A stretch of DNA of 64,000 bases from an uncultured Sphingomonadaceae bacterium (lineage in GTDB: Bacteria; Pseudomonadota; Alphaproteobacteria; Sphingomonadales; Sphingomonadaceae): positions 1 through 64,000 of the forward strand of contig CAMYJW010000011.1 of the NCBI GenBank assembly GCA_947258815.1, written 5' to 3'. A program made the translations under genes and the position numbers. How positions within the stretch are numbered: position 1 is the first letter of the stretch; each line of letters begins with the position of its first letter. Under the pieces are notes generated by a model. The model was given only the letters and a program-made list of their open reading frames with translations, made no database searches and was not told where the DNA came from. Positions 44,772 to 63,164 of this stretch are shown here, piece by piece.

Positions 44772-45089
44772 ATGCCAACGATTAACGTGATTGACCGGGC
44801 CGGAGCCACCAAGGCGGTTGAAGCCAAGGACGGCGTATCGCTGATGGAAGTGATCCGCGACGAAGGCTTTGACGAGCTGCTCGCGCTGTGCGGCGGCTGC
44901 TGTTCATGCGCAACCTGCCACGTCCACATCGATCCGGCGTTCAAGGACAAGCTGCCCGAGATGACCGAAGACGAAAACGACCTGCTCGACAGCTCCGATC
45001 ACCGCGACGAAAACTCGCGCCTGTCGTGCCAGATCGAAATGTCCGCCGATCTCGATGGCATCACCGTCACCATTGCAGAGGAAGACTGA
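44772..45089 (+). CDS. [2Fe-2S] ferredoxin, putidaredoxin/adrenodoxin type
   Basis: The 105-residue protein has the four cluster cysteines Cys40, Cys46, Cys49 and Cys86 (CxxxxxCxxC, then LSCQIEM), the spacing of putidaredoxin. Two extra cysteines (Cys43, Cys44) lie inside the loop. It should carry electrons to a P450, such as that at 27894, or to the Rieske protein at 48167. No matching reductase is present in the window. It lies 31 bases after the sulfotransferase gene and overlaps nothing; the epoxide-hydrolase-like gene begins two bases after its stop. Confidence 0.94.
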
Positions 45090-47355: not shown

Positions 47356-48090
47356 CTACTTTCCCGCAAGCAAGCCTGCCAGAAGGAACTGCGCCATCGC
47401 ATCGGCGTGGGCTTCATCGCCGTTCAGATTGCCCGCGTCGCCATATTGATCGGGCAGCAGTCTATCCTGCAACGGCCCCAGCGCGAAATAGGAACTGACG
47501 CCGTGCACCAGAATCGCCATCAGCGCGCCTGAACCGATCGGCGTCAGCTGTCGCCGCGATGCAACATCGCCCAGCAGGCGTTGCAGGCGTTTCTGAAATG
47601 GCAGAATGAACCGGGCTGTCAGATAATCGAGACGCCAGCTATCCTGCTGCCCTTCGCTGTAGCTGATGGCAACGATATCCGAATTGGCAATCGCCCAGCG
47701 GCAGAAACGATGCACCAGATCGCGAAGCTGATCTTCAGAGCTTGCGCCCGTTGCAAACGCCATTTCCACATCGCGCGCAGCTTCCGCCAGCCGCCAGTCC
47801 ACCGCGGCCTTCCACAGTTCGGACTTGCGGCCGAAACGCACATTGAGAAGATTGTGGCTGACGCCCAGCTCGCGCGCCATCGCCCGCATTGTCGATGCTT
47901 CATACCCTTGCGCCGCAAACATCGCGAACGCGGTTTGCAACAGATGCGCTTCATCGATCGACGCGCTGGTATCCGCCTTTGGCCGCCCACGCTTGCGTTC
48001 ATGAACAACCGGGGCATCACCCTCAGGGACAGGTGGTTTTTCTGCCAGTGAAACCGAAACTGGATCCGCCAGTGAATCTGAAGATGCCAT
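47356..48090 (-). CDS. TetR-family regulator
   Basis: The 244-residue protein has an N-terminal extension of about 45 residues, ending in the basic segment HERKRGRPKAD, before the TetR helix-turn-helix (LLQTAFAMFAAQGYEASTMRAMARELGVSHNLLNVRFGRKSELW). The RKRGRPK segment is AT-hook-like and could add minor-groove contact. The ATG at 48090 is taken; a good ribosome site is lacking. A perfect 17-bp palindrome lies 11 bases upstream, between this gene and the divergent Rieske gene, so autoregulation and control of the split oxygenase operon are likely. Confidence 0.9.
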   Translation of the reverse strand: MASSDSLADPVSVSLAEKPPVPEGDAPVVHERKRGRPKADTSASIDEAHLLQTAFAMFAAQGYEASTMRAMARELGVSHNLLNVRFGRKSELWKAAVDWRLAEAARDVEMAFATGASSEDQLRDLVHRFCRWAIANSDIVAISYSEGQQDSWRLDYLTARFILPFQKRLQRLLGDVASRRQLTPIGSGALMAILVHGVSSYFALGPLQDRLLPDQYGDAGNLNGDEAHADAMAQFLLAGLLAGK

Positions 48091-48100
48091 CAAAGGACAT

Positions 48101-48166: not shown

Positions 48167-49090
48167 ATGACCGAGGCAGTTTGGTGGGCCGTCGCCCGCT
48201 CCGAAGAGATCAGCAAGGACAAGCCCGTCAATGTCGATATTGGCGATCAGCCGATCGTGCTGTGGCGCGATAGCGATGGCATTGTTCGTGCGCTGGAAGA
48301 TCGCTGCCCGCATCGCCGCGCACCGCTTTCGCTGGGATGTGTGCTTGGCAGCGGGATGATCCAGTGCGGCTATCACGGCTGGACGTTTGACGGCGCGAAT
48401 GGCCAGCTCGTCGATATCCCCAATCTCAAGAGCGAGCGTAAATTCCCGCCCGTCTATCGCGCCAGAGCCTTTGGCGTGACGGAAAGCGGCGGCTTCATTC
48501 GTGTGTGTCTTGATGCAAAAACCCCGCAGCCCGCCCCGGCTGAGGAAACACTGCCGCTTTCGGGGACGGAAAACGTCGCGCTCGATCACGATCAGTATAT
48601 CAATGCCCTGTTTGATGATCCGGCGCTGGTTATCGGCATTCGCGGGGTGCGCTTTTCGCCCTATCTCATGGCCGAACTGAAAGAACAGGATGGCAGGCTG
48701 GTGCTGGAGCGATCCTGCCAGTGGGCCTCGCCGCACTGGCCCGCGCCCTTTTCTTCGGATTTCCCGATCACGCTGAAAATCTCGACCGATCCCGCTTCGG
48801 GAGAAAGCGACCTGCTGCTGCGCGACGATCAGTTCAATCCGCTGCTACGCGCCACCCTTGCACCGGTTCCCGGCGCCAGAGGCGTAACGCAAGTGCGCTG
48901 GAGGGCAAAACTCGAAGCGAAACGTCCCGGATTGATGGCAAAAGCCATGGGGCTGGGCGATCCGCTTACCGTGCATTCCCATGTCGATGGCGCTGCGTTG
49001 CGTGTGCAAAAACCATCGGCATCCATCCATGCGGTGGAACTGCGCAAAGAGATCGCCGCGCGAACAGAGCGCCAGGAAACCGCCGCGTAA
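48167..49090 (+). CDS. Rieske [2Fe-2S] protein lacking the mononuclear-iron motif
   Basis: The 307-residue protein has a complete Rieske motif: Cys47, His49, Cys67 and His70 (C-x-H-x17-C-x2-H) in EDRCPHRRAPLS and IQCGYHGWTFD. In ordinary ring-hydroxylating or Rieske monooxygenases a NxxDxxHxxxxH iron site follows about 100 residues later; none is present in residues 100-307, although the remaining domain has oxygenase-like length. The next gene product has the iron site but no Rieske cysteines. I infer that this protein is the electron-carrying partner of a two-protein oxygenase. A ribosome site AGGGAGAG precedes the ATG. It is the first gene after the TetR operator. Confidence 0.88.
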   Translation: MTEAVWWAVARSEEISKDKPVNVDIGDQPIVLWRDSDGIVRALEDRCPHRRAPLSLGCVLGSGMIQCGYHGWTFDGANGQLVDIPNLKSERKFPPVYRARAFGVTESGGFIRVCLDAKTPQPAPAEETLPLSGTENVALDHDQYINALFDDPALVIGIRGVRFSPYLMAELKEQDGRLVLERSCQWASPHWPAPFSSDFPITLKISTDPASGESDLLLRDDQFNPLLRATLAPVPGARGVTQVRWRAKLEAKRPGLMAKAMGLGDPLTVHSHVDGAALRVQKPSASIHAVELRKEIAARTERQETAA

Positions 49091-49123
49091 TCGCGGCGCA
49101 TATTCTAACCTAAGGAACTGACT

Positions 49124-50188
49124 ATGCTTGATATTCAGGACAGCATCCCAACAGCGGACCATGATGATCCGATCAGCTCGGACCCGCGCACATTCGCGGC
49201 CAAGGTCAATTCGTGGGTGCCCCACGATATCGTTCTGAAAGATGCCTGGTTTCCGCTGGCGCACAGCACCTCGGTCGGCACAAAACCGGTCCGGCGGGCG
49301 ATTTATTCGCAGCCGTTCTTCCTGTGGCGTGAAAGTGGCCAGCCGGTTGCATCCGAATTTCACCCCGCCGAAGGGCTTTCCGCCTCAAAAAGCGAATACA
49401 GCGATGCCCAAGGCCGATATCCGGTGATGGAAAAATACGGTTTTGTCTGGGGCTGGTTTGGCAATCCCGCCAATGCCGCGCCCCAACACCTGCCCGATAT
49501 TCCCTACCTTCCCGAAGAAGGCGGCGTGCCCGAACATATGATCGGCACCGTGCGCTTCGATTGTTGCGCCCCGCTGAGCCTTGAAAACCTGATCGACCTC
49601 ACCCACGCCGATTTTCTCCATGCCGATGTTGTTGGCGATGAGAAGATGGACAAGGAAACCGTGGAAGTGTTTCACGACAGCGAAACGATCACCATGGTCC
49701 GCACGTGCGTCAACAAATCGGTCGCACCGGTAATGAAATGGTTTGGCGGTGTGCGATCGGATGTGCAGCAGGTTCGTCAGGTGATCCGCATTTACCTGCG
49801 CAGCCACGTTGCGATGGCTTATGGCCGGTTCAGCCCCGGTGACAATGTCCAGCTGTTCCACCCCTGCGTGCCTGAAACGCGCGACCGGACACGGCTGGAC
49901 TATGTGATGAACACAACCAACGTGAAGAAACGCAATCCCTTCCGCTATATCATGCCAACGGCAAGCTATAAGGTTTCGCGCCAGGACAGTTCGATGACTT
50001 CGCCGCAAAGCCCGCGCTATATGCGCCCCGAAGCGCGCAAGGATCTGCACTCGCCGCTGGACGAAGCGGGGCAGAAATATCGTGTTCTCATGCTCGCACT
50101 AGCCGAAAGACAGGCGCGCGGCGATTTCGAATATCGTGATGATGTCAGCGCTGATTGCAGTGAGCTGATAGGATACGATGGAACATGA
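49124..50188 (+). CDS. Rieske oxygenase catalytic-domain protein with the Rieske ligands missing
   Basis: The 354-residue product has the canonical mononuclear-iron motif N155-x2-D158-x2-H161-x4-H166 (ENLIDLTHADFLH) in an oxygenase alpha-subunit-like catalytic domain. The N-terminal region still looks like a degenerate Rieske fold (FFLWRESGQPV, GFVWGWFGNP), but it contains no cysteine before residue 147, so it cannot hold a [2Fe-2S] cluster. This complements the preceding protein, which has the cluster but no iron site. A split of this sort is known for the caffeine N-demethylase pair NdmC/NdmD. A 33-base gap with AAGGAACTG separates the genes; the LLM gene overlaps its end by ATGA. Confidence 0.9.
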   Translation: MLDIQDSIPTADHDDPISSDPRTFAAKVNSWVPHDIVLKDAWFPLAHSTSVGTKPVRRAIYSQPFFLWRESGQPVASEFHPAEGLSASKSEYSDAQGRYPVMEKYGFVWGWFGNPANAAPQHLPDIPYLPEEGGVPEHMIGTVRFDCCAPLSLENLIDLTHADFLHADVVGDEKMDKETVEVFHDSETITMVRTCVNKSVAPVMKWFGGVRSDVQQVRQVIRIYLRSHVAMAYGRFSPGDNVQLFHPCVPETRDRTRLDYVMNTTNVKKRNPFRYIMPTASYKVSRQDSSMTSPQSPRYMRPEARKDLHSPLDEAGQKYRVLMLALAERQARGDFEYRDDVSADCSELIGYDGT

Positions 50189-51243
50189 CCAAACTGACTA
50201 ATGCCACCGGCGGTGATCGCCGCTGGTGGGGCGTAATGCCGGTTCTTCCTGCCCCGGTTATGGGCGGCATGGCAAAACAGATGGAACAGGTCGGGTTCGA
50301 AGGCTGTTTCTCTTTGCAGATATATGGCGCGCCGTTCGTGCCGATGGCCGCTGTTGCGGCGATGACGGACACGCTGAAAGTATCGCCCGGCATTGCTGTG
50401 GCGGGCACGCGCAGCCCGGTGGAAACCGCCTATTCGGCAATCGAATGCGATACGATCAGCCAGGGCCGCTTCGTGCTGGGCCTGGGCACATCGCTGCACA
50501 GCGCGCTTGAAGGCATTTATGGCGAACCGCACCGCAAATTGCTGACCCACTTGCGCGAAGTCGTGAAGATCGTGCGTTATGTAAACGCCAACGGCCACAA
50601 GGAAATGGAGCCGCTGCACGGCGAATACTACAATCTGGAATGGACCGAAAAGATGATGACCGCGCCGCCCGTGCGCGAGAACATCCCCATCTGGATTGCC
50701 GCGCTGAAAGACAAGCTGACCAGCATGGCGCTTGAAATCGGCGATGGCCTGATTGTCCATGCGCTGTGGACGGCGGATTATACCAATCACAAGAAACCGT
50801 TCATCGAAGCCGAACTCGCCAAATTCGGCCGCAAGCGCGAAGATGTTGAAGTCAACGCATGGCCATGGGTTGCGGTGAACGATGACAAGCAGCAAGCCAT
50901 TGATGACAGCCGCGCCACGGTGGCCGGGTATATCGGCTACAAGGAATATGAGAACTTCTTCGACACCATCGGCTTTGGCGATCTCGCCCGCGATTGCCAG
51001 CTGAGCGCCGGAGAACATGGCGACGTTTCCAGCGTGATTGACAAGGTGAGCGACGAAGTTGTTCAGGCGTTCGTTAAATGCGGGCCGGTTGATGAAGTCC
51101 TCGAACAGATCGAGCCGTTCTGGAATGTGGTCGATTCGCTCTGCCCGATGACCCCCTATCGCAACCTGTCGATGGAAAAGCTGACCGCCTACAACGAAGG
51201 CATCTTCAAAATGGTGGCGGAAGCCAAGCGCCGTGAAGCCTGA
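50185..51243 (+). CDS. LLM-class oxidoreductase (paralogue of the 45570 protein)
   Basis: The 352-residue TIM-barrel LLM protein shares FGAPF-like IYGAPFVPMAAVAAM, AGTRSPVETAYSAIECDTISQGRFVLGLG and the HLREVVKIVRYV block with the gene at 45570. F420 or FMN is the likely cofactor. Its start overlaps the split oxygenase catalytic gene by four bases (ATGA), so it is translated with it and probably handles the product or substrate of that oxygenase. A roughly 80-base gap to the convergent SDR gene contains no clear terminator, only an 8-bp GGCCTGCG/CGCAGGCC inverted pair far apart. Confidence 0.91.
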   Translation: MTKLTNATGGDRRWWGVMPVLPAPVMGGMAKQMEQVGFEGCFSLQIYGAPFVPMAAVAAMTDTLKVSPGIAVAGTRSPVETAYSAIECDTISQGRFVLGLGTSLHSALEGIYGEPHRKLLTHLREVVKIVRYVNANGHKEMEPLHGEYYNLEWTEKMMTAPPVRENIPIWIAALKDKLTSMALEIGDGLIVHALWTADYTNHKKPFIEAELAKFGRKREDVEVNAWPWVAVNDDKQQAIDDSRATVAGYIGYKEYENFFDTIGFGDLARDCQLSAGEHGDVSSVIDKVSDEVVQAFVKCGPVDEVLEQIEPFWNVVDSLCPMTPYRNLSMEKLTAYNEGIFKMVAEAKRREA

Positions 51244-51326: not shown

Positions 51327-52169
51327 TTATTGCTCGGCCTGCGCTACCAGTTCCTCGCTGATCTTCCAGAGCCGGGCCGCGCCTTCATCGCTTTGCGCCG
51401 CCGGCGTAAGATCACCCAGTTTGCGTTTGGCAAAATACTCGCCCGTCGCTTCGGGCGCGCCGCCTTGCGCCAGCCACAGGATCGTGTCCGCCCCCTTTTC
51501 GGGCGTCAGTGAGAACGGGCGGCTCAGCAGATACATCAGCTTGACGATGACATTGCCGTGGCTGTCAAAGTTCGTCTGCACCAGGCCGGGATGAACCGCA
51601 TTGATGCGAATGCCATCCGGTTTAATTCTGCGCGCCAGCTCACGCGCATGCAGGATATTGGCCAGCTTCGATTGCGTATAGGCGTCGTTGGCGCTGAACT
51701 TCAGCGTTTGCTGGAGATCGTCCCACTTCATGTCCTTGATGAACTTGTGGGCAACCGAAGCGGTATTGATGATCTGCGCTCCGGGGCCGGCGGCCTTGAT
51801 CAGTGGCAGCAAACGGTTGGTCAGCAAAAACGGCGCGAGGTGATTGGCCGCAAAGCACTGCTCAAACCTGTCCACTGTCTCAACGCGTTGCGCAGGCATG
51901 AAACCGGCATTGTTGACCAGAAGATCGATCCGCTCGGTCTGCGCAGCGATATCATCTGCAAAGCGCGATACGTTCGCCATGACCGACAGATCGGCCAGCA
52001 CCATATCGACGTGCGCCTGAGGCGCGGCACGACGGATATCGGCCAGCGCAGCCTCTGCCCTTGCCGGATCGCGCCCATGCGCGATCACACGCCAGCCGCT
52101 GCGCGCCAGTTCACGGGCTACAACCAGGCCGATGCCGGAGCTGGCGCCCGTAACAACCGCGGTCTTCAT
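51327..52169 (-). CDS. SDR, retinol dehydrogenase/WWOX-like
   Basis: The 280-residue SDR has TGASSGIG (7-14), VNNAG (85-89), NTASVAHKF and catalytic Tyr164 and Lys168 in YTQSK, as in the retinol dehydrogenase/light-dependent protochlorophyllide reductase-like branch. Insertions around 140-160 (HKFIKDMKWDDLQQTLKF) are typical of that branch. It probably works on a hydrophobic alcohol or ketone. The ATG at 52169 shares its first base with the stop of the sterol-desaturase-family gene upstream (TGATG); a GTG one codon earlier is unlikely. It ends the minus-strand operon that begins with the NTF2-fold genes. Confidence 0.9.
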   Translation of the reverse strand: MKTAVVTGASSGIGLVVARELARSGWRVIAHGRDPARAEAALADIRRAAPQAHVDMVLADLSVMANVSRFADDIAAQTERIDLLVNNAGFMPAQRVETVDRFEQCFAANHLAPFLLTNRLLPLIKAAGPGAQIINTASVAHKFIKDMKWDDLQQTLKFSANDAYTQSKLANILHARELARRIKPDGIRINAVHPGLVQTNFDSHGNVIVKLMYLLSRPFSLTPEKGADTILWLAQGGAPEATGEYFAKRKLGDLTPAAQSDEGAARLWKISEELVAQAEQ

Positions 52170-53035
52170 CACCCCGCCTCAATGTTTGTGGCTGGGGAAG
52201 CAGGCGAACGGTCATCGACATCGTCCGCCTCGCTCGATTTCTTGCGGAAAAACGGGAAAAACACCTCTTCGCGCCAATCGGCGTTGGTGCCGGGCAATCC
52301 ATAGCGGAACGGCCGGCCGGAAGGGATATACAGGCTGCCGAATATTGTATCATAGATTGACAGCATGATCCCGTAGTTACGAAAATTGCCGCCGTCGCGC
52401 CCATATCCATGGTGCGAATGATGGATGCCGGGCGAAACGATCACATGTTCCGCCAGCCGTATCACCGGGCCGAACACACTGTGACGGCGAACCGCATCAT
52501 CCCAGCGGAAGTGGCTGTGCGTTACCAGCCCCCACATCGTGAACAGGAAAATCGCCAGTGCCGCCGCCTCTAACTGTCCGGCATATACCGCAAAGCCCGT
52601 AACCCAGGGCAGCGGCATAACAAACGGCCAGAACGGATTGACCCTGAAAACCAGCAGCACATTGACATATTTGCCCGAATGATGAGTCCGGTGAAGCCGC
52701 CACAGCCAGTCAAAATAACGCGAACCCTTGGCTTCATGAGCGGATCGGTGGACCCAGTAGCAAAAGAATTCCGCCGTCACGATGGTTGCCGCCAGCGACG
52801 GCAGAAGCCCCCAGTGCGCCAGAAAACCCTGATGCTGCGGGTGCAACAAGCCCAGACCAGCGGCCACCATCATTGCCGCCAGCGGGCGCGTGATTGCCAT
52901 GCCAATCAGCGTGCACAGCCCGTTCACCAGATGATCCTCACGCCGGTAAAGGCCGCGGTGGCGACCAAACAGCAGCTCGGCAAGAAGCAAGACCAAAGCC
53001 GTTCCGGCCATCCACGCAGTTTGTTCAGCAGTCAT
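52169..53035 (-). CDS. Sterol desaturase/fatty acid hydroxylase-superfamily membrane protein
   Basis: The 288-residue membrane protein has the diiron histidine boxes HRSAH (96-100), HRTHH (115-119) and HHSHH (205-209) between about four hydrophobic segments. Family members hydroxylate or desaturate sterols, fatty acids and carotenoids at a membrane-bound diiron site. This suggests a hydroxylation of a lipophilic ring compound. It sits between the KstD-like flavoprotein and an SDR on the minus strand, with the downstream SDR coupled by a one-base overlap. The electron donor is unknown. Confidence 0.91.
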   Translation of the reverse strand: MTAEQTAWMAGTALVLLLAELLFGRHRGLYRREDHLVNGLCTLIGMAITRPLAAMMVAAGLGLLHPQHQGFLAHWGLLPSLAATIVTAEFFCYWVHRSAHEAKGSRYFDWLWRLHRTHHSGKYVNVLLVFRVNPFWPFVMPLPWVTGFAVYAGQLEAAALAIFLFTMWGLVTHSHFRWDDAVRRHSVFGPVIRLAEHVIVSPGIHHSHHGYGRDGGNFRNYGIMLSIYDTIFGSLYIPSGRPFRYGLPGTNADWREEVFFPFFRKKSSEADDVDDRSPASPATNIEAG

Positions 53036-60072: not shown

Positions 60073-60828
60073 TTATCGAAACAGGTCTTCGTTTTTGGGG
60101 CGCAGCGCGGCACCGATGGTTTGCGCCTCTGACTGCCAGGAAAGGCCGCGCACGATACAGGCAGGCAAACCTTCCGCCCCTTCGCCCATCGCCAGCCCTG
60201 CGGCGGCCGCGACCGAATCGGCAAAGGCGATCTGCGTAACCTGCATGGTCCGCCCGTCCCGGTCTGGCTCTCCGCGCTGATCAAGCACGGCGGGAAGGCC
60301 CGAAATGCCGATCGCAACGTTGACCGTGCCAACCCGCCACGGCCTGCCGAAGCTGTCTGAAATTATCACCGCCACGCCCAATCCAGTCGCCGCTTTGCAC
60401 GCGCTGGCGATCCGGGCCGCGCTGGCATCGGGATCTTCGGGCAAAAGCAGCACATGCCCACCATGCGCAGAGCCGATATTGGATGCATCAATCCCGGCAT
60501 TGGCCATCACATGGCCCAGTTTGTGGCGTGTGATGAGGATATTGGGCGCGCGGCGCACCACCGCGCTTGATTCGCGCAGCACCAGCTCAACCAGCGCCGG
60601 GTCTTTGCCCACGTCCGCGGCCAGCGCGCGCGCGTCTGCCGATGGCGTAACAGCCGCGGGATCGACCATGCGCCCTTCGGCCTTGGATACGATTTTCTGC
60701 GTAACCACCAGAATATCGCCCGCCTGCAAGCCGGGATCGCCTTGCGCCAGCCGCCGCGCCAGAATTGCGGGCAGATCATCGCCATCGGCAAACTCGGGCA
60801 GCCCGGCAATCGGTTTAACGCAATACAT
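60073..60828 (-). CDS. cofE: F420-0:gamma-glutamyl ligase
   Basis: The 251-residue protein matches CofE/FbiB ligase domain: GDILVVTQKIVSKAEGR near the N-terminus, VLRESSAVVRRAPNILITRHKLG in the centre, and DSFGRPWRVGTVNVAIGISG. It adds gamma-linked glutamates to F420-0, the last step of coenzyme F420 synthesis. Unlike mycobacterial FbiB it has no nitroreductase-like C-terminal domain. It lies 17 bases after the FbiC-type gene on the same strand. CofC and CofD are not in the window and may lie beyond its right edge or elsewhere. Confidence 0.94.
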   Translation of the reverse strand: MYCVKPIAGLPEFADGDDLPAILARRLAQGDPGLQAGDILVVTQKIVSKAEGRMVDPAAVTPSADARALAADVGKDPALVELVLRESSAVVRRAPNILITRHKLGHVMANAGIDASNIGSAHGGHVLLLPEDPDASAARIASACKAATGLGVAVIISDSFGRPWRVGTVNVAIGISGLPAVLDQRGEPDRDGRTMQVTQIAFADSVAAAAGLAMGEGAEGLPACIVRGLSWQSEAQTIGAALRPKNEDLFR

Positions 60829-60845
60829 CGACGGCTCCGAACCGG

Positions 60846-63164
60846 TCAGTCAGCGCAGATCAATTCGCGCTGGCGCACCTGATAAAGCGTGCTGCGCTCG
60901 ACCAGCGAACGCCCCAGCCCTTCAGCCAGCTCGCGCATCTGTACGACGCCAAATTCCTGCCCGTTAACGCCGCCTGCCGCGCGCGTAATCGATTCGTCCA
61001 TCAGCGTTCCGCCAAGATCGTTTGCGCCAGCCTGCAGCATCGCCGCCGCACCCTCTGGCCCCAGTTTCACCCAGCTTGCCTGAATGTTGGGGATCGCCCC
61101 ATCCAGCGCAATGCGCGCCACTGCATGCATCAGCACCGCCTCGCGCCATGTCGGGCCAGAGCGTGTCTCGCCCCGGCGCCAGTTGGGCGCTTCCATGTGC
61201 ACAAACGGCAGCGGCACAAATTCGGTAAACCCGCCCGTTTCCTGCTGCAACTGGCGCACGCGCAGCAAGTGAATTGCCCAGTGATCGTGTGTTTCAACAT
61301 GGCCAAACATGATCGTCGCGGTTGATTTCAGGCCAACAGTGTGCGCCGCGCGCATCACCGCCAGCCACTCCTGAGTGTTGACCTTATCCGCGCAGATGAC
61401 ATCGCGAATATCATCGGAAAGGATCTCCGCTGCCGTGCCCGGCAACGTCGCCAGCCCGGCCTCTTTCAACGAAGCCAGATATTCCTCATAGGTCAGGCCC
61501 AGCGTCGTCGCCCCGTGATGCACTTCGAGCGGCGAAAAGGCATGAACATGCATTTCGGGCACGGCCTCTTTCACCGCCCGGACAATCGCGCGATAGGTGT
61601 TGCCATCATAGCTGGGATGGATGCCGCCTTGCAGGCAAACCTCGCTTGCTCCGCGCTCCCACGCCTCGCGCGTGCGCTGCGCAATTTCGGCATGGTCGAT
61701 GTTATAGGCGGGGCCACGCTCACTTTTGGTGCTGCCTTTGGAAAAGGCACAAAAGCCGCAGCGATAAAGGCAGATGTTGGTGTAATTGATATTGCGATTG
61801 ACAGCATGGGTGATCGTATCGCCCACCCGATCCTGCCGCAGTTCATCGGCAAACCGGCTGACCGCCTCAAAATCGCGCCCTTCGGCAGTGAACAGCCGCG
61901 CGACCTGATCGGCTTCCAGTTCCTCGCCATATTCAACCCGGCCAAGCGCCGCGCGGATCGCAGGATCGCGGCCCGCAACCAGCGAGGGGAAAGTTTCGGG
62001 AATTTCCCCGCCGGTGCCCGCAGACCAGTCACTGTCACGCGGCAGGCCGCGCGCGTCTACCGCACGGCGAATGCGGGTGTGCAGTGCCTCATCGGCCCAG
62101 CGCACCGGATCGCGCGCAAATGCCGGGCCAATTGCCAGTCGCTGCCGCAGATGCCTGCCAGCGCGTTCGGTTTCGGTTTCCAGCTTTTCAAGATGCGGCC
62201 ACGGCGCTTCTGGATTGACATGATCGGGCGTGACCGGAGAAACCCCGCCCCAATCGTTGACCCCGGCGCGGACCAGGGGTTTGAGCTGGCCGGGCTGCAG
62301 GTTTGGCGGGGCCTGTATCGTCATATCCGGGCCAAAGATCAGGCGCGCGGCGGCAATCGTCCACAGATGCTCATCCAGCGGCAGATCGGGCGCATCGCGC
62401 ATCAGCGTATCGGGCTTGGACCGGAAATTCTGGACGATCACTTCCTGAATGTGGCCATAGCGCACATGCAAATCGCGGATCGCCAGCAACGCCTCTATTC
62501 GTTCCAGCCGGGTCTCGCCAATGCCGATCAGCAGCCCGGTGGTAAACGGAACCTGCGCTTCTCCGGCAAGGCGGATCGATTCAAGCCGCACGGCAGGAAC
62601 TTTATCGGGCGAGCCATAATGCGGCCTGCCTTTTTCGCATAACCGATCAGAACTGCTTTCCAGCATCAGCCCCATCGATGCCGATAGCGGACGCAACGTT
62701 GCATAGTCGTGCGCATCCATGATGCCGGGGTTGAGATGTGGCAGCAGCCCGGTTTCATTCAGCACCAGCTTCGCAACATGGGCCAGATAGTCCAGCGTGC
62801 TGGAAAAGCCGCGTTCGGCCAGCCATTCGCGCGCGGTGGAATAGCGCGCCTCGGGCCGGTCCCCCAGCGTGAACAGCGCTTCGCGGCAGCCCTGCGCCTC
62901 TCCTGCGCGGGCAATTTCCAGCACTTCTTCAGGCTCAAGAAACGGCGCTTCAAGCTGCGACGGGCGATGCGCGAAGGTGCAATAATGGCAAACATCGCGG
63001 CACAATTTGGTGAGCGGAATGAACACCTTGCGCGAATAAGTGACCAGCGTGCCCTGCCCGGCCAGCGTTTGCGTTTCGGCTTGACCCAGCAGATCGGGCA
63101 GCGCCATCGGTTCCAACCGGTCAAGCCAGTCGCGCGCTTCTTCTCGGTTCCACCACTGCGTCAT
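60846..63164 (-). CDS. fbiC: FO synthase, CofG-CofH fusion (FbiC type)
   Basis: The 772-residue protein has two radical-SAM domains. CofG comes first, with the cluster motif Cys55, Cys59, Cys62 (CRDVCHYC); CofH follows, with Cys465, Cys469, Cys472 (CLYRCGFC) around NRNINYTN. CofG and CofH together make the 7,8-didemethyl-8-hydroxy-5-deazariboflavin chromophore (FO) of F420. The fusion order is that of FbiC in mycobacteria, in a slightly shorter form. It precedes cofE by 17 bases and follows an LLM gene by seven. F420 synthesis in a probable sphingomonad is notable. Confidence 0.96.
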   Translation of the reverse strand: MTQWWNREEARDWLDRLEPMALPDLLGQAETQTLAGQGTLVTYSRKVFIPLTKLCRDVCHYCTFAHRPSQLEAPFLEPEEVLEIARAGEAQGCREALFTLGDRPEARYSTAREWLAERGFSSTLDYLAHVAKLVLNETGLLPHLNPGIMDAHDYATLRPLSASMGLMLESSSDRLCEKGRPHYGSPDKVPAVRLESIRLAGEAQVPFTTGLLIGIGETRLERIEALLAIRDLHVRYGHIQEVIVQNFRSKPDTLMRDAPDLPLDEHLWTIAAARLIFGPDMTIQAPPNLQPGQLKPLVRAGVNDWGGVSPVTPDHVNPEAPWPHLEKLETETERAGRHLRQRLAIGPAFARDPVRWADEALHTRIRRAVDARGLPRDSDWSAGTGGEIPETFPSLVAGRDPAIRAALGRVEYGEELEADQVARLFTAEGRDFEAVSRFADELRQDRVGDTITHAVNRNINYTNICLYRCGFCAFSKGSTKSERGPAYNIDHAEIAQRTREAWERGASEVCLQGGIHPSYDGNTYRAIVRAVKEAVPEMHVHAFSPLEVHHGATTLGLTYEEYLASLKEAGLATLPGTAAEILSDDIRDVICADKVNTQEWLAVMRAAHTVGLKSTATIMFGHVETHDHWAIHLLRVRQLQQETGGFTEFVPLPFVHMEAPNWRRGETRSGPTWREAVLMHAVARIALDGAIPNIQASWVKLGPEGAAAMLQAGANDLGGTLMDESITRAAGGVNGQEFGVVQMRELAEGLGRSLVERSTLYQVRQRELICAD

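Follow-up and report, generated by a model that had tools for sequence, protein, structure and literature searches.

Two adjacent alpha-subunit homologues with reciprocal metal-site loss, probably forming one heteromeric Rieske oxygenase, in an uncultured Sphingomonadaceae bacterium

Canonical Rieske oxygenase alpha subunits carry the ligand motifs of the [2Fe-2S] cluster and of the mononuclear iron on one polypeptide. In the two-chain chlorophyllide a oxygenase (CAO) of Micromonas pusilla, cluster and iron reportedly reside on different chains. The Micromonas enzyme (Kunugi et al. 2013) worked in vitro when VanB served as its reductase, and either a heterodimer or a "trimer of dimers" has been suggested for it (PMC9615114). 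The iron monooxygenase NdmC of Pseudomonas putida CBB5 lacks a Rieske cluster of its own and relies on that of another protein (PMC4408171); in this NdmCDE system the reductase NdmD carries the fused Rieske domain, and the glutathione S-transferase-like NdmE is also needed. In canonical enzymes the cluster is located ~ 12 Å from the iron of the next subunit and ~ 45 Å from that of its own. According to a 2025 perspective, in the available part of which the word NdmC is absent, the alpha subunit is two-domain and the characterised assemblies are consistently C3-symmetric (PMC12445004). Here we describe two adjacent genes, designated A and B, at positions 48167-50188 of a 64,000-nucleotide stretch from an uncultured Sphingomonadaceae bacterium (the window, meaning the whole stretch analysed). 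Neither gene encodes both motifs; only the pair does. Each product holds one site and the two genes are found together, therefore A and B are most likely one two-part enzyme. We assign a probability of roughly 80% to the reading that they are alpha-subunit homologues with reciprocal metal-site loss that work as one heteromeric Rieske oxygenase.

Homologous pairs were collected from 41 loci. A lies upstream of B in all of them (41/41), with a spacing of -17 to +65 bp when the start codons are chosen by script. Removal of 11 near-duplicates left 30 A rows and 30 B rows. The two open reading frames reported in the initial annotation were recovered where it had placed them, with the motif residues as claimed, both in the translations and in the homologues (30/30 and 30/30 rows). 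Gene A and its parts are as follows:

48167-49090, forward strand: gene A, Rieske-site protein of 307 amino acids (Pfam, model, profile alignment, motif counts)
48305-48376, forward strand: Rieske [2Fe-2S] ligand motif of A, C47, H49, C67 and H70 (30/30 A rows)
48605-48640, forward strand: iron-motif remnant of A, residues 147-158 (profile alignment, column counts)

The A translation contains a complete Rieske cluster motif (C47/H49/C67/H70), which is present in 30/30 A rows; in one of them the H49 codon includes an undetermined base. The iron motif N-x2-D-x2-H-x4-H is absent from the translation as scanned and from the homologues (0/30 A rows). The Pfam match is Rieske (PF00355, E value 1e-25), and scanning up to an E value of 0.01 gave nothing beyond Rieske and Rieske_2. 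Profile alignment places the A segment around 'NALFDDPAL' onto the canonical 'DNLMDLTHETYVH'. At the column of the motif asparagine, A has alanine or valine in 28/30 rows; the first iron histidine is kept in 1/30 rows and the second in 0/30. The bridging aspartate is retained as D150 in 29/30 rows. The AlphaFold2 model of A alone, computed from 27 alignment rows, has a pLDDT (predicted local distance difference test) of 91.5 and a pTM (predicted template modelling score) of 0.88. Its superposition on the chains of dicamba monooxygenase (DdmC) aligns 264-285 residues, between residues 1 and 304, with Z scores of 21.7-22.5. The C-terminal part of A is recognised by the structure model and by full-length profile alignment, not by profiles of that part alone. 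A is thus predicted to adopt an alpha-subunit fold in which the cluster site is intact and the iron site is lost.

Gene B presents the complementary case:

49124-50188, forward strand: gene B, iron-site protein of 354 amino acids (Pfam, hhalign, model, motif counts)
49586-49621, forward strand: mononuclear iron motif of B, N155, D158, H161 and H166 (30/30 B rows)
49985-49987, forward strand: D288 of B, probable third (carboxylate) iron ligand (column counts, profile alignment)
49235-49471, forward strand: Rieske-domain remnant of B, residues 38-116 (hhalign, landmark spacing)

The translation of B reads N155/D158/H161/H166 at the iron motif, and its first cysteine is C147. The iron motif and the bridging D158 are each present in 30/30 B rows. 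The cluster motif occurs in 0/30; homologues of the second protein thus do not usually have a full Rieske motif. VanA_C (PF19112, E value 5e-32) is the sole Pfam match up to an E value of 0.01. The column of D288 is aspartate in 29/30 B rows, the exception being a frameshifted sequence (locus L049), and profile alignment to canonical enzymes makes this residue the probable third iron ligand. Residues 30-116 of B still match canonical enzymes (hhalign E value of 6e-15); the domain is ~ 30 residues short and the cluster loops are among the missing residues. The landmark spacing is 59-66 residues in B (26/30 rows), compared with 95-99 in canonical sequences (46/54 rows). The B half of the fused model described below (residues 354-653, corresponding to B residues 35-334) superposes on dicamba monooxygenase over 284 residues with a Z score of 29.3 and a root-mean-square deviation (RMSD) of 2.5. 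B is predicted to be an alpha-subunit fold with an intact iron site and a cluster-less Rieske domain.

With the iron motif eroded in A and the cluster loops missing in B, each protein looks like a whole alpha subunit from which one site has been erased. The canonical combination of a Rieske domain and a helix-grip catalytic domain is present in both predicted models, which indicates that the split is not that of one protein cut in two. The description of A and B as a "cluster protein" and an "iron protein" in the initial annotation therefore holds for the division of the sites but is too narrow for the proteins, because both are modelled as whole alpha-subunit folds that have lost the other site. 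A and B have little alignable sequence in common.

The two genes are separated by a gap of 33 bp and share the reading frame, which allowed the prediction of one 673-residue chain by reading through two TAA codons. Of the 50 rows in the alignment of the fusion, 6 were natural pairs, counting the query. The AlphaFold2 model of this chain has a pLDDT of 90.2 and a pTM of 0.87. Halves that were not placed relative to each other would give a pTM of ~ 0.5, a value that is a rough estimate and not a control run; the difference suggests that the docking of A and B is predicted with confidence. All PDB alignments are matches to single chains.

The pairing was observed directly in several collections. 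The host genome contains a second split pair (G000:C10:183243-185188, locus L002), encoding proteins of 298 and 351 amino acids whose genes overlap by 4 bp and which are 34% and 35% identical to A and B, respectively. This second pair directly precedes a gene similar to annotated cytochromes P450, and TonB receptors and a GntR regulator are close by. A profile built from the two B proteins of the host genome was searched against 249 genomes of the family and detected 20 genomes at an E value of 1e-15. Strong, nearly full-length matches were confined to 5/249 genomes, in 8 places with E values of 2.1e-106 or better; the remaining 15 genomes gave matches with E values of 9.2e-20 to 8.6e-16 and partial profile cover. 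A Rieske-only gene lies directly upstream at 8/8 of the strong places. The reverse search with A (E value 1e-35) returned the same 5/249 genomes and the corresponding 8 places, and found no A without B in the 249 genomes. Beyond the family, B was found in 4 of the 296 genomes of an order sample at an E value of 1e-40, the host genome counted. Searches of a class sample (385 genomes) and a phylum sample (398) with the B profile at an E value of 1e-30 gave the host genome as the sole match, and the split family thus looks rare and patchy. A search of PHROGs gave no match.

A scan of the genome_contigs collection yielded at least 79 loci. Among the matches listed, 28 (L034-L061) are 41-83% identical to B and belong to the split family, and 51 (L062-L112) are at most 32% identical. 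In 46/51 of the low-identity loci the printed open reading frame has both motifs on one chain, and for the other 5 the printed stretch does not cover the match; when the 51 loci were scanned in full, 54 two-motif sequences were obtained, with L070 and L094 among their sources. A Rieske-only partner lies directly upstream in 27/28 split-family loci by script and in the remaining one (L053, whose partner carries one undetermined base in a histidine codon) by inspection, making 28/28 among the matches listed. The titles of the 28 loci name Alpha-, Beta- and Gammaproteobacteria, one Verrucomicrobiaceae metagenome-assembled genome (MAG) and unclassified MAGs. In the Pseudomonas fluorescens isolate PS662 the pair occurs on two different contigs (L047 and L048) with equal match figures. 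L049 comes from a Paraburkholderia-labelled MAG, and its pair barely differs from the one on the Novosphingobium resinovorum plasmid pSA2; its B has an apparent frameshift in the C-terminal part, and the locus is possibly misbinned DNA.

Among 72,556 plasmid records, A was found in 4 at an E value of 1e-20. B was found in 74 at an E value of 1e-5; its top four matches (44.6-80.5% identity) are the four A records, and the fifth-ranked, among the best 20 of the 74 that were listed, is 22.7% identical. No A without B occurs among the plasmid records at an E value of 1e-20, and every strong match to B, in the 249 genomes and among the listed genome_contigs loci, is accompanied by A. The constant co-occurrence that the initial annotation had named as a check on the homologues is thus borne out by the 28/28 listed loci, by the same 5/249 genomes and by the same 4 plasmid records. 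The partner of A at the surveyed loci is the split B and not a full alpha subunit. On three annotated plasmids the halves are labelled apart, as "Rieske protein" and as "oxygenase" or "dioxygenase subunit alpha", and this separate annotation hides that A and B are probably one enzyme. Quick trees separate both the A rows (30) and the B rows (29) from 54 canonical rows, with SH-aLRT (Shimodaira-Hasegawa-like approximate likelihood-ratio test) values of 98 and 100, respectively. Mean pairwise identities over 28 pairs, from which the B rows of L049 (frameshifted) and L059 (truncated) were dropped, are 0.56 for the Rieske half and 0.34 for the dead half of A, and 0.51 for the dead Rieske domain and 0.55 for the catalytic half of B. 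Canonical enzymes, unlike A, have similar means in both halves (0.58 in the Rieske half and 0.54 in the catalytic half).

The Micromonas CAO and NdmC/NdmD demonstrate, by analogy, that such a division of sites is possible. NdmC/NdmD had been named as the precedent for A and B and does represent one such split, but the two-chain CAO is closer, being likewise one Rieske oxygenase in two chains; in A/B, too, the cluster and the iron are apart. NdmD differs from A, which has only Rieske matches in Pfam, no flavin reductase fusion and, in addition, a dead alpha-type catalytic domain. The Micromonas enzyme differs in that it is algal and serves chlorophyll b biosynthesis. CAO is expected to carry a PaO-type C-terminal domain, and neither A nor B has a PaO-type domain match in the Pfam scan up to an E value of 0.01. 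The two splits likely have separate, convergent origins. Comparisons by sequence and by fold place dicamba monooxygenase (DdmC), guaiacol O-demethylase (7qwt) and the saxitoxin oxygenases SxtT and GxtA among the top matches of A as well as of B; these enzymes, unlike A and B, have both sites in each chain. Dicamba monooxygenase, SxtT and GxtA are listed as alpha3 assemblies, and NdmA/NdmB, which resembles A/B in having two distinct alpha-type chains in one assembly, is alpha3alpha'3 (PMC12445004). No description of the bacterial A/B split family was found in the literature, which is weak evidence of absence because subscription journals were mostly uncovered.

Several observations weigh against the two-part enzyme. 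The docking was predicted for chains joined covalently by read-through, just 6 of the 50 alignment rows were paired, the alpha3 interface is known to AlphaFold from training, and the pTM of 0.87 speaks for docking only and not for the orientation or the metal-metal distance. The fold match of A to the DdmC chains is loose (RMSD of 3.9-4.5), and A residues 116-307 alone do not match canonical enzymes significantly in hhalign (E value of 0.016). The 28 loci are not all independent, as L042 and L044 may repeat contigs of genomes G237 and G049, two loci belong to the PS662 assembly and L049 is possibly misbinned, and the count of 28/28 rests on the matches listed, such that unpaired members may have escaped. 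The A-B distance correlation (r of 0.95) is expected for any neighbouring genes. The trees came with long-branch warnings, worst for the second pair, and that of A is based on few columns. Finally, the dead Rieske domain of B is about as conserved as its catalytic half, which would fit a B homotrimer too.

This last point bears on the most serious competing explanation, which likens A to the Rieske ferredoxin of carbazole dioxygenase: B would form a homotrimer, and A would be no fixed subunit but a Rieske-type electron carrier that docks on it and dissociates again. The persistence of the dead Rieske domain in B, the conservation of the Rieske half of A next to a drifting C-terminal half, and the presence of Rieske ferredoxins and the like (NirD, AndAb and CarAc) among the weaker matches of A all agree with it. 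However, A is not a small single-domain protein: it has 307 amino acids, compared with ~ 100 in such a ferredoxin, and is modelled as an alpha subunit throughout, to residue ~ 304. It is also placed with high confidence in the fused A-B model, and in a B trimer the neighbour's dead Rieske domain would presumably fill the site facing the iron. We consider a carrier role improbable. That B acts independently of a cluster while A serves another, complete oxygenase of the cell is very unlikely: the host genome does contain other Rieske proteins (15 matches to A, A itself included), but A was never found without B in the family genomes or plasmid records, nor B without A among the strong matches. 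The absence of one site from each gene could also suggest that A and B are decaying remnants of one oxygenase that underwent local loss. This has a negligible probability given the second split pair in the host genome and the 28 paired loci from several bacterial classes, among the matches listed, in which the retained ligands are conserved. The homologue survey rules out not only local loss but also pseudogenes and a true alpha partner that is missing. The A/B family is real, extends across several bacterial classes though rare, and most likely constitutes a heteromeric Rieske oxygenase of reciprocally inactivated alpha subunits.

For this heteromeric enzyme we infer that electrons run from the cluster of A to the iron of B. 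An electron would enter the [2Fe-2S] cluster of A, in the host genome plausibly from the ferredoxin encoded at 44772, and would reach the mononuclear iron of B across the interface of the two proteins, via the conserved bridging Asp158. O2 would be activated at the B iron, and the presumed activity would be the monooxygenation of a hydrophobic, probably alicyclic or coenzyme A (CoA)-linked catabolic substrate. The dead domain of each protein may be retained as a scaffold. Such a division of sites would keep the inter-subunit path of the canonical enzymes and drop the intra-subunit one, which is too long to be of use. By geometry alone, and not as a result of the analysis, a mixed ring of three A and B chains has exactly one interface that leads from the cluster of an A to the iron of a B. 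A single A-B interface of this kind per mixed ring implies either a trimer with one working site or else A-B dimers or a trimer of dimers. The odds are about even that this reciprocally inactivated alpha/alpha' bacterial family is unable to follow the C3 head-to-tail design and has one site per trimer, or A-B dimers or a trimer of dimers instead.

In ordinary Rieske oxygenases each alpha chain holds both metals, so that a mutation of the gene acts on the start and the end of the electron path together. Where the metals are on separate chains, each site could be loaded, reduced, mutated or swapped alone, and the cluster-to-iron step would, if the two-part enzyme is real, be separable and titratable subunit by subunit. 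The A/B pair would then offer a test of inter-subunit electron transfer, of the bridging aspartate and of the number of active sites that an assembly needs. It would also represent a bacterial route for dividing enzyme sites between two genes, probably independent of the algal chlorophyllide a oxygenase.

The gene neighbourhood of the pair in the window includes:

44772-45089, forward strand: [2Fe-2S] ferredoxin, candidate electron donor to A (nearest curated family of the iron-sulfur cluster (ISC) type, below cut-off)
47356-48093, reverse strand: divergent TetR regulator (context, not core)
50185-51243, forward strand: luciferase-like monooxygenase (LLM)-class oxidoreductase, its first 4 bp shared with the end of gene B (context, not core)

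The positions of the TetR and LLM genes are as the initial annotation gave them. Its proposal of a TetR-controlled operon with a coupled LLM enzyme stands for the adjacency in the window and fails as a core part of the system: with flanks of up to 8 kb and tblastn at an E value of 1e-10, a downstream LLM gene was found near the pair in 10/28 loci and a TetR gene in 9/28, together with a ferredoxin in 8/28 and CofGH or CofE in 5/28. Because the TetR and LLM genes are near the pair in a subset of the loci only, they are context and not parts of the enzyme. Among the genes traced, A and B alone are common to all loci. In the window and on plasmids of Croceicoccus and Novosphingobium resinovorum, the pair is accompanied by ferredoxin, sulfotransferase, LLM enzyme, flavoprotein and F420 biosynthesis genes; the window flavoprotein resembles 3-ketosteroid dehydrogenases, below the cut-offs. 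Other settings, sampled in Massilia, Pseudomonas, Spongiibacter and the Verrucomicrobiaceae MAG, contain enoyl-CoA hydratases, acyl-CoA dehydrogenases, CoA transferases, acyl-CoA ligases and short-chain dehydrogenases/reductases. Both gene settings would suit a monooxygenase acting on a hydrophobic alicyclic or carboxylate substrate. In NCBIfam, A and B have a single family match in common, 4beta-methylsterol monooxygenase; with 65 and 26 bits against a cut-off of 600, the scores are far too low for an assignment. The idea that the pair might be a bile-acid side-chain oxygenase of Sphingobium sp. Chol11 (Nov2c349) was dropped. Nov2c349 is described as a TesA2-like 9,10-seco-steroid monooxygenase component (PMC8540908, PMC8399759, PMC12175502).

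A fatty-acid-hydroxylase-type protein is encoded at 52169-53035 on the reverse strand, inside the same oxidative cluster of the window. The coenzyme F420 pathway genes of the host genome are divided between two contigs, with CofGH and CofE in the window (60073-63164, reverse strand) and CofC and CofD on the other (G000:C16:35175-37440). F420-type LLM oxidoreductases are encoded near CofGH and CofE, and similar clusters occur on plasmids of Croceicoccus marinus and Novosphingobium resinovorum.
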